The position numbers and the translations under genes were made by a program. DNA of 42,528 bases from Thermoplasmata archaeon (lineage in GTDB: Archaea > Thermoplasmatota > Thermoplasmata > Lutacidiplasmatales > UBA184). Within the stretch, counting starts at the first letter, position 1. The number at the start of each line of letters is the position of its first letter. The notes beneath the pieces are model-generated. The model was not told the origin of the DNA. It made no database searches and saw only the letters and a program-made list of their open reading frames with translations. The stretch lies in contig JAKASE010000019.1 in NCBI GenBank assembly GCA_021819135.1, forward strand, positions 1 through 42,528. The letters run 5' to 3'. Shown here in pieces: positions 39,739-42,528 of the stretch.

Positions 39739-39760
39739 CGCCGTTCGGGTGACAGCCGCC

Positions 39761-40618
39761 GTGCCGCCCGTGCCCCTGGCCCGGCCAGGACCGGATCGAG
39801 AGCCACCCTCCGGGACCCGACTGACGGTCCTGCCGGCGTCGAGCCAGTTCGCCGAGATCTCCCGGCCGATCGTGCGCCAGACCGAGCCGGTCGCCCCTCG
39901 CCGCGTCGAGCGGGGCGTGGTGGCCTTCGACCTCGACGGTACCATCCTCGACGACCTCGACGCGATCAGCCGGGTCGCCGCGGACGTCCTGTTCCGCGCC
40001 TTCGGTACCGCCCCGGAGGAGGCGCGGATCCACTACCTCGCCACGACCGGCATGCCGTTCGAGGCCCAGCTGGCCCAGCTCTATCCCGGAACGCCGGTGG
40101 ATCAGAGGGCGAGCACGGCCCGGACGTTCCACCAGCGGAAGGTGCAGGAGGCCTACGCGCATGCCGAGCCGTTCCGGGAGATCCCGAAGGTCCTGAAGCG
40201 TCTCGCCGAGGACCGCTGGACGCTCGTCGTCACCACCGGCGCCGAGACCGAGATGGCCGACCTGCTCCTCGAGCGCGAGGGCCTCCGGTTCTGGTTCGAG
40301 TCGGTCCTTGGGAGCGGGGAGGGCACGAAGCGGGAGCATCTCGCCGAGTACCGGCGCCGTTTCCCCGAAGTGCCGATCTTCCTCGTCGGGGACTCCCGGT
40401 TCGACATGGAGGCCGCGCAGTCGGTAGAGGGGGTCGTACCCCTCGGGAGGGCGACCCGAGTACCGGGCTGGACGCTGACCCCGTCGGACCTCGAGCAGTG
40501 GGGCGCGAGGTGGGCCGACTACTCCCTCTCGGAACTTCCCGCGACGCTCGACCGGCTCGGAACCACCCGAGGGACCGATCGGCCCCGTTCCCGGACGACG
40601 ACGCGCCGGCGTTCGTGA
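39761..40618 (+). CDS. HAD-superfamily phosphatase (phosphoglycolate-phosphatase-like)
   Basis: This 285-residue phosphohydrolase has all four HAD motifs: DLDGT (57-61, nucleophile Asp), VVTTG (motif II), the lysine in GTKREHLAEY, and LVGDSRFDMEAA (acidic pair). A helical cap lies between motifs I and II, as in phosphoglycolate phosphatases. The first 50 residues are not family-like and may be poorly defined; start 39761 is chosen by the promoter. The basic C-terminal tail (RPRSRTTTRRRS) is odd. The stop is 1 nt before the convergent tRNA-His gene ends. The substrate is unknown. Confidence 0.85.
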   Translation: MPPVPLARPGPDREPPSGTRLTVLPASSQFAEISRPIVRQTEPVAPRRVERGVVAFDLDGTILDDLDAISRVAADVLFRAFGTAPEEARIHYLATTGMPFEAQLAQLYPGTPVDQRASTARTFHQRKVQEAYAHAEPFREIPKVLKRLAEDRWTLVVTTGAETEMADLLLEREGLRFWFESVLGSGEGTKREHLAEYRRRFPEVPIFLVGDSRFDMEAAQSVEGVVPLGRATRVPGWTLTPSDLEQWGARWADYSLSELPATLDRLGTTRGTDRPRSRTTTRRRS

Positions 40619-40619
40619 G

Positions 40620-40727
40620 GGCCGGGACCGAGAGTCTCAGGGCGCGGGGTCCGGCCCCGCTCCGCTTTGAACCCGGGTCGAGGGATCCACAGTCCCCCAG
40701 GATAGGCCAAGCTACCCCATCCCGGCC
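40620..40727 (-). tRNA. tRNA-His (GTG) with about 32-nt insertion (probable intron) in the T loop
   Basis: Read on the minus strand, the parts of a tRNA are present. The acceptor stem is 40720-40726 with 40621-40627 (7 bp, perfect). The extra G at 40727 faces C at 40620, the G-1/C73 pair that marks tRNA-His. The D arm is at 40717-40699 (GGGTAGCTTGGCC...). The anticodon stem is 40693-40697 with 40681-40685, loop CTGTGGA, anticodon GTG at 40688-40690. The T stem is 40672-40676 with 40628-40632 (one G-T). The T loop begins TTCAA, but about 32 extra nt (near 40634-40665) separate it from its last bases. Removing them gives TTCAAAT and a normal tRNA. CCA is not encoded. A TATA-like CTTTAGT lies 29 nt upstream. 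Confidence 0.85.
40634..40665 (-). other. Probable T-loop intron of tRNA-His (near position 59/60)
   Basis: This 32-nt insert can fold into a 6-bp hairpin (40655-40660 with 40644-40649, loop of 5). The exact splice point is open by one or two bases because adenines repeat at both ends. A perfect bulge-helix-bulge motif cannot be drawn by eye; relaxed forms with three of four central pairs can. Introns at positions 59/60 are known mainly from Thermoproteota, so this is unusual here. Confidence 0.6.
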
Positions 40728-40752
40728 ACGAGGGTCCGACGGAGCCTCTCGG

Positions 40753-40759
40753 ACTAAAG
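40753..40759 (-). promoter_or_regulatory. TATA-like box for tRNA-His
   Basis: CTTTAGT (minus strand) is centred 29 nt before the first base of the tRNA and overlaps the stop codon of the membrane gene upstream. It supports the tRNA being expressed. Confidence 0.45.
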
Positions 40760-41771: not shown

Positions 41772-42305
41772 CTACCAGAGCTTCGCCGCCCGATACGCAA
41801 TGAACGCGCAGACGAACTCGGCGAGCGCCAGGTAGTTCTCGAGCTTCTTCTCCCATCGGATCAGCAGACGACGGAGCCGGTTCATCCATGAGATGGCACG
41901 TTCGACCACCCAGCGACGGGGTTTCCGCTTGCGGTTCCGTTCCATCTCGATCTTCTCCTCCCCTCGCGAGCGGATGTGCGCGACGAAGTCGTTCGCGGCG
42001 AGGGTCTCTCGTGTTTCGTCGTAGTCATATCCCTTGTCGAGGCACATATTCTGTCGAGTGCCTCGAGGCGGACGGACCGGGCGGCTCTCCAGTGTGGGTC
42101 CGAGCACCTTGTGATCGTTCCGATTGGCGGGGGCGACAGCGAGGCCGATGATGATGCCCTCTCCCTCGGTCTGGAGACTTCGCTTGGTCCCCTTCTTCGC
42201 GCGGTCTGTTGGATTGGGACCCGTGGCTTCCCCGCCGAGAGGGGCCTTGCTCATCGCCCCGTCGATCGATTGCCAGGTCCAGTGGACGCCGACCTCCTCG
42301 TCATA
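41772..42305 (-). pseudogene. IS5-family transposase, 5'-truncated
   Basis: The DDE catalytic part is intact: first Asp in SIDGAM, then the APLGGEATGPNPTDRAKKGTKRS block, second Asp in CLDKGYDY, and the glutamate in RRWVVERAISWMNRLRRLLIRWEKK. The N-terminal DNA-binding domain of about 80-100 residues is missing. The open frame runs on to 42503, but there it reads DNA that is tnpB in another frame, so the joined frame is not a real protein. The break lies at about 42306-42328. It is a remnant, probably cut by insertion of an IS200/IS605-type element. Confidence 0.75.
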
Positions 42306-42308
42306 GAA

Positions 42309-42322
42309 GAGAAGCCGTTCTC
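42309..42322 (-). repeat. Short hairpin at the tnpB / transposase junction
   Basis: GAGAACGGCTTCTC (minus strand) makes a perfect 5-bp stem with a 4-nt loop, 6 nt after the tnpB stop. IS200/IS605 right ends carry subterminal hairpins, so this may mark the right end of that element. Confidence 0.35.
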
Positions 42323-42328
42323 CTGTAC

Positions 42329-42528
42329 CTACGCGCTGGTGAGCGCTGGCAGGTTCCTGCTTCCCCGGGCGGCACCTGCCATCGCTGGCATGCATCTCCG
42401 CCCTCCCCAGGCGTTTAGGCTCTCGACCGAACTGGCCGCGAGCATCGCAAGGTTGCGACTGGCATTCAGGTCGCGGTCCACCACGAGCCCGCACGACCCG
42501 CATGAGTACGTCCGCTCCGATAGCGGCA
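42329..42528 (-). CDS. tnpB: TnpB (IS200/IS605-type RNA-guided nuclease), C-terminal fragment at window edge
   Basis: Only the last 66 codons are in the window. They read LSERTYSCGSCGLVVDRDLNASRNLAMLAAS: the second CxxC of the TnpB zinc ribbon, followed by the DRDxNAxxN RuvC-III motif with a catalytic Asp. The frame stops at TAG 42329-42331. The rest of the gene lies beyond 42528. TnpB cuts DNA guided by an RNA made from the element's right end, which overlaps the tnpB 3' end; such an RNA may be encoded here. It lies against the truncated transposase. Confidence 0.75.
   Translation of the reverse strand, partial: PLSERTYSCGSCGLVVDRDLNASRNLAMLAASSVESLNAWGGRRCMPAMAGAARGSRNLPALTSA

Follow-up and report, generated by a model that had tools for sequence, protein, structure and literature searches.

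The 42,528-nt contig JAKASE010000019.1 of the Thermoplasmata archaeon assembly GCA_021819135.1 (the whole of it is called the window below) carries, on the minus strand at 40620-40727, a tRNA-His gene interrupted in its T loop by 32 nt. Comparison with relatives makes us highly confident that this is a functional, single-copy gene with an intron at the 59/60 site, which would be removed by the protein splicing route of archaea, in a lineage of Thermoplasmata that is probably UBA184/Candidatus Lutacidiplasmatales. The minus strand reads as a complete tRNA-His(GTG) precursor with G-1 paired to C73, a 7-bp acceptor stem, a D arm, the anticodon loop CTGTGGA (anticodon GTG at 40688..40690) and a 5-bp T stem. 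From the sequence and its relatives, the 5' exon runs from G-1 to A59 (62 nt, 40666..40727); the 3' exon, placed by reading the sequence, runs from T60 to C73 (14 nt, 40620..40633) and does not encode CCA. Between A59 and T60 (TTCAAA...T) lies the intron (40634..40665), delimited by the inserts of relatives and by ten tRNA-His genes of other families that have none. An earlier note, made from the letters of this DNA alone, had described the gene with the same coordinates, strand, insert length, stems, G-1/C73 pair and GTG loop, and had observed that taking out the insert restores a standard T loop; removal does give a standard cloverleaf with a T loop of 7 nt.

The 62-nt 5' exon was searched in 37 genomes of the genus, including that of the window, and in 24 genomes from other families of the class. 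Thirty genus genomes gave a single match apiece, G047 gave two, and six genomes that are 59-85% complete gave none. All 32 of these loci, from 31 of the 37 genomes, were read, and in every one 29-32 nt are inserted at 59/60. The mature tRNA-His is identical in 22 of the 32 and differs by few letters in the rest (mean identity 99.4% over the 340 same-length pairs of 496), compared to 73% identity among the introns of 32 nt (n = 25). In an alignment of 33 tRNA-His sequences (the 32 genus loci and that of G040, from another family) the 14 pairs predicted for the insert are formed in 91.0% of 458 cells, against 33-58% when slid, and none of 500 shuffles scored as high. Nine of the 14 pairs change on both sides, all of them within the hairpin. 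The exons are thus conserved and the intron varies except in its structure, as is expected where an intron interrupts a working gene.

From other families, the tRNA-His of 14 genomes was read. It is whole in ten of them, with a 7-nt T loop which is exactly TTCAAAT in four (G060, G056, G032 and G031), and has an anticodon-loop intron in three (G025, G027 and G039). In G040 (locus L202) it has a 59/60 intron, possibly an independent gain. The match in G030 and G055 is Arg-GCG, and the remaining eight genomes lay outside the reading. The near-identical exons around the genus inserts, the compensatory changes in the hairpin and the whole tRNA-His of other families together argue for an intron rather than for a decayed gene. 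The search found a single match in the genome of the window, so the earlier suggestion that this might be its only tRNA-His stands within the limits of an assembly that is 91% complete. A second intact copy, together with decay in relatives, had been named as one observation that would overturn an intron; instead the one copy was found, and relatives keep the intron with exons intact.

The tRNA-His intron is one of a set. In the same genome 38 places were matched by the Rfam tRNA model with E up to 10, 29 of them over its cut-off, and a T-loop-intron model (R1), built from eight class-I tRNAs with Lys, both Ser and Leu left out, added tRNA-His and four more, making 43. By eye and by script, 12 of the 43 have a 59/60 intron, and 11 of the 12 were found without R1: they are His, Glu-CTC, Arg-TCT, Arg-TCG (locus L040), Gly-TCC, Ser-GCT, Ser-GGA, Ala-GGC, Lys-TTT, Asp-GTC, Gln-CTG and Leu-TAG. 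Counting introns elsewhere in the tRNAs, the reading gave 21 in 19 of the 43 places, most of them at 59/60. In the eight class-I tRNAs, which are of different isotypes, 98.4% of 192 cells are paired, none of 500 shuffles reached that value, and 19 of 24 pairs change on both sides; stems that stay paired through compensatory differences make these genes unlike pseudogenes. When R1 was used on 24 other genomes of the genus, one locus being taken from each (L055-L078), all 24 had a T-loop intron. In the 24 genomes from other families, where 30 loci from 23 genomes were examined and G034 gave no match, 14 genomes (16 loci, mostly Arg tRNAs by reading) have a 59/60 intron and 14 loci do not; as only the best-scoring loci were read, 14 of 24 is a lower bound. 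By sequence, the tRNA-His intron is one of many T-loop introns that occupy a single site and recur across numerous families of the class; the earlier statement that such introns are rare outside Thermoproteota does not hold for this class.

So regular a set could consist of recent copies of one mobile intron, as in Thermoproteales, an explanation which we think improbable and which concerns only the origin of the introns. The 12 introns of this genome do share one site, similar lengths and a common 3' end (for example GGAAC, GAAAC or GAGAC) before T60. That end is common because it is paired with the constant TTC of the T loops. With the last six bases left out, no pair of the 12 rises above the 99.9% level of mononucleotide shuffles, and very similar introns in different isotypes, the mark of the Thermoproteales mobile type, were not seen among these 12, the comparison being confined to this genome.

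Excision by the archaeal enzyme would need a bulge-helix-bulge (BHB) at the exon-intron borders, and the tRNA-His precursor can form one. The letters TTCA at positions 54-57 (40668..40671) are able to pair with TGAG, which lies close to the 3' border of the intron (40636..40639), and all four pairs of this central helix can form. It is flanked by the bulges A58 A59/G (40665..40667) and AC/T60 (40633..40635), beyond which the insert folds into a hairpin of its own (40640..40664), 8 of whose 10 pairs are standard in the window copy and 9 of 10 change on both sides over the 33 sequences. By the BHB rule the 5' splice site is predicted between 40666 and 40665, in the register given by the slide control described next, and the 3' splice site between 40634 and 40633. 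In 93 introns from the genus, pairing of the intron helix averaged 4.72 of 6 and fell to 2.26-2.95 of 6 on a shift of one to three bases, which shows the register to be right across the set.

The central helix was tested further at position 57, where the T loop has either A or G. Among 110 distinct introns the base facing G57 is C in 40 of 40, and the base facing A57 is C in none of 70 (U in 31, G in 38 and A in one); in the genome of the window alone, C faces 57 in 5/5 G57 introns and 0/7 A57 introns. Five of 115 distinct scan matches, which have no TTCRAA or no T60, had been dropped from this table (L010, L025, L052 and one each from L223 and L227). Six of the 17 introns from other families have no isotype from the script, and 'Val' for L223 is probably a wrong name, the cause being a further intron in the anticodon loop of these genes. 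The covariation of the base facing 57 indicates that the central helix is real across these sequences, with a fourth pair that is often A.G.

Several observations weigh against the reading of a spliced intron. The folding energy of the precursor is unremarkable (z = -0.71), and the minimum-energy fold of the unspliced strand is a cloverleaf whose T arm carries the insert as a hairpin; the exact BHB helix is missing from this fold, which uses alternative pairs between T loop and intron. With the BHB imposed the energy is -50.5 compared to -54.5 kcal/mol, ie 4 kcal/mol worse, and in the window copy the pair probabilities of the central helix are 0.01-0.02. In the window copy the intron hairpin opens with C.C (40664 with 40640), a standard pair is absent at that position in 17 of the 33 tRNA-His sequences, and another pair of the window hairpin is A.G. 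Within tRNA-His the central helix has no pair that changes on both sides, its covariation coming from other isotypes; a fourth standard pair is absent in 39 of the 70 A57 introns, and in one of 110 introns C faces C56. The model R1, which found most of the non-His introns in relatives, contains the BHB pairs and is biased towards them, and related species do not count as independent events. Since the z value is not unusual and the best fold lacks the exact BHB helix, the folding energy of the tRNA-His precursor proves nothing. The pairs preferred by energy hold in 85.6% of cells over the 33 tRNA-His sequences, compared to 93.9% for the central helix, and it is from comparison across sequences, not from energy folding, that support for the BHB comes. 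As to the earlier suggestion to look for a BHB in the folded precursor, the helix and both bulges can form, and energy folding prefers another pairing.

The minimum-energy fold would suit an RNA in which the insert is retained, giving a mature tRNA-His with a larger T arm and an extra hairpin. We hold this to be very unlikely. Position 57 and the base opposite it covary in the way expected of the BHB, tRNA-His is whole in the ten genomes from other families, and genes for a splicing endonuclease and a ligase are present in the genome. A retained insert would, moreover, tie up letters of the T loop and so abolish the contacts of the tRNA elbow. That the locus is a pseudogene or an assembly error, with a whole tRNA-His elsewhere, possibly within the 9% of the genome that the assembly lacks, is less credible still: the assembly is in 47 contigs, and eukaryotic tRNA genes with D- or T-arm insertions are, according to PMC4090602, mostly taken as pseudogenes, but all 32 places to which the exon search of the 37 genus genomes led are interrupted at a single site, and their exons are intact and nearly invariant and their hairpin covaries.

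The splicing endonuclease which would act on the tRNA-His intron is encoded at one EndA locus, as a protein of 354 amino acids with two PF01974 matches in a single open frame. Y285, H300 and K331, in the C-terminal unit, are invariant in 20 aligned proteins and are presumed to be the catalytic triad because their spacing of 15 and 31 matches that of the ARMAN-2 triad quoted in PMC6379350. Among 105 relatives, 80 EndA loci from named genomes were kept, with Thermoplasmata in the title of 74, Methanomassiliicoccales in that of 3, Euryarchaeota in 2 and 'bacterium' in 1; those at 75-84% identity include UBA184, UBA61 and AcS/SubAcS assemblies, and the probable lineage of the window follows from these and from the grouping in PMC9287336 given below. 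No insertion resembling the specificity loops CSL or ASL was found between YG and the core (YGSRVGNRLELSLLEAAYL in the EndA of this genome) in any of the 20 aligned proteins. Where A. pernix EndA has the stretch containing K44, the alignment of the N-terminal unit shows a gap, and that of the C-terminal unit begins just after this stretch. The best match in PDB, over both units, is 5x89 (6e-32), followed by further EndA chains, among them 3p1z, 1a79 and 1r0v, the last being the A. fulgidus enzyme (1.8e-24). Classification of the enzyme, as proposed in the earlier note, thus gave two units in one chain, ie an architecture of the alpha'2 type as judged from the sequence; its nearest known sequence, 5x89, is not an alpha'2 enzyme. 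An RtcB gene is also present (E 4.5e-173), and the genome therefore has both proteins that a BHB intron calls for. In the transcript, T-loop letters 54-57 would be held in the central helix; EndA would cut after A59 and before T60, RtcB would join the exons, and only then could the T loop dock on the D loop.

According to PMC6379350, PMC12397907 and PMC4033280, alpha4 and alpha'2 endonucleases accept only the canonical motif, and enzymes with CSL or ASL accept relaxed ones. The EndA of this genome has no such loop and accompanies many non-canonical introns, and the motifs of some are imperfect. It had been argued earlier that an intron at this position needs an endonuclease of relaxed specificity; on this the observations are mixed, with four possible pairs in the central helix, a C.C pair at the head of the window hairpin, and an EndA that has no CSL- or ASL-like insertion. 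A wider proposal is that T-loop introns at one site occur throughout the class and in more than a quarter of the tRNA genes of the UBA184 lineage, and that a two-unit EndA without CSL or ASL cuts even those with three standard pairs and A.G. We advance this tentatively, rating it a little below an even chance. If true, it would break the rule that ties the diversity of tRNA introns to an EndA with a specificity loop. A higher estimate is held back by 5x89, the best match, which is the Methanopyrus kandleri EndA: PMC6379350 describes it as (alpha beta)2, as having neither CSL nor ASL and as of 'constrained broad' specificity, and states that it already cuts a relaxed motif slightly.

Automatic searches had been expected to stumble on the interrupted tRNA-His, and they do. 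ARAGORN called it with different ends (40651-40728). The Rfam tRNA model had no match in the window at its cut-off and none on the tRNA-His stretch at E up to 10, nor was the place among its genome-wide matches at that threshold; Rfam matches with E 7 on this stretch are to unrelated families and were set aside as chance. A strict scan (7/7 acceptor and 5/5 T-stem pairs, TTCRAA, T60, T8, A14 and set distances) found exactly one place in the window, the tRNA-His, and none in 100 dinucleotide shuffles on both strands. Automatic annotation of these genomes can therefore misplace or miss essential tRNA genes. Upstream, the TATA-like box noticed earlier is CTTTAG on the minus strand (40754..40759), 28-33 nt before G1; a block AAN(1-4)TTT ending 28-31 nt upstream of G1 is present at all 32 tRNA-His loci, compared to 10 of 1600 shuffled upstream stretches. 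By inspection of the sequence, a putative HAD-hydrolase-like frame (39749-40618, plus strand) stops immediately short of the 3' end of tRNA-His, which converges on it, and a putative transposase-like frame (41772-42503, minus strand) lies at the end of the contig.

Reading of the other tRNA genes gave five D-arm inserts in this genome (Lys-TTT, Leu-TAG, Arg-GCG, Pro-TGG and initiator Met), whose borders are settled for initiator Met only, and four anticodon-loop introns (L020, L022, L024 and L026). Lys-TTT (L036:312-454, plus strand) and Leu-TAG (L039:487-631, plus strand) apparently combine an intron in the D arm with a second at 59/60. The D-loop insert of the initiator Met tRNA (L029:1472-1574, plus strand) is bounded by CAGG/CCTG and AAA bulges, and its removal leaves AGGAAATCCC, the same as the Met-CAT tRNA of another family (L233). 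The Arg-GCG and Pro-TGG tRNAs with D-arm inserts are those of L050 and L053. Gln-CTG and a tRNA read mostly as Leu-TAG, each with a T-loop intron, have starts 134-143 nt apart and keep a constant order at 12 loci (L039, L057, L058, L059, L062, L064, L065, L071, L072, L077, L242 and L243). Asn, Trp, Arg-CCG and further CAT tRNAs were not among the 43 places of this genome, no search having been aimed at them.

An intron of this kind is not new. Non-canonical tRNA introns are rich in Thermoproteota such as Pyrobaculum, and the list of known sites includes 59/60 (PMC4090602). The tRNAscan-SE 2.0 paper counts 673 non-canonical introns in 217 genomes, and crenarchaeal and euryarchaeal cases served to train one of the program's models (PMC8450103). 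Multiple introns are on record for M. kandleri and Methanothermobacter (PMC4033280), and in the soil Asgard archaea Atabeyarchaeia and Freyarchaeia 92-95% of tRNA genes have introns (PMC11291895). For Euryarchaeota with alpha4 or alpha2 enzymes, the group that includes this class, reviews state that tRNA introns are few and confined to the canonical site (PMC4090602) and that such enzymes cut only canonical motifs (PMC4033280). UBA184 is grouped with AcS/SubAcS genomes in Candidatus Lutacidiplasmatales in PMC9287336, a study which used tRNAscan-SE 2.0 and whose main text does not contain the word 'intron'. At the level of titles and the openings of abstracts, with subscription literature outside the scope, no report of T-loop introns in Thermoplasmata was found. 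What is new is the extent of the introns across the lineage and their pairing with this enzyme: recurrent T-loop introns beside a loop-less EndA offer a direct test of whether the loop of the enzyme or the motif of the RNA sets intron diversity.

The introns of Thermoproteota are bounded by BHBs, as those described here are predicted to be, and resemble them in lying at 59/60 and other sites and in occurring several to a genome and sometimes two to a gene (PMC4090602); here, in contrast, the host belongs to Thermoplasmata, EndA has two units and neither CSL nor ASL, and there is a bias to the single site 59/60. The soil Asgard archaea are likewise uncultured, outside Thermoproteota and provided with many non-canonical tRNA introns (PMC11291895), but they form a different phylum, and in the genome of the window 19 of 43 tRNA places have introns, most at 59/60. 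The narrow alpha'2 endonucleases of Thermoplasma acidophilum and Archaeoglobus fulgidus have, like the present EndA, two units in one chain and no CSL- or ASL-like insertion before the core (PMC6379350). Unlike them, this EndA matches that of M. kandleri best and is found in a genome rich in non-canonical introns. The M. kandleri enzyme is alike in being the best match over both units and in having no loop, and differs in being made of separate alpha and beta subunits (PMC6379350), whereas here both units are encoded by one gene.
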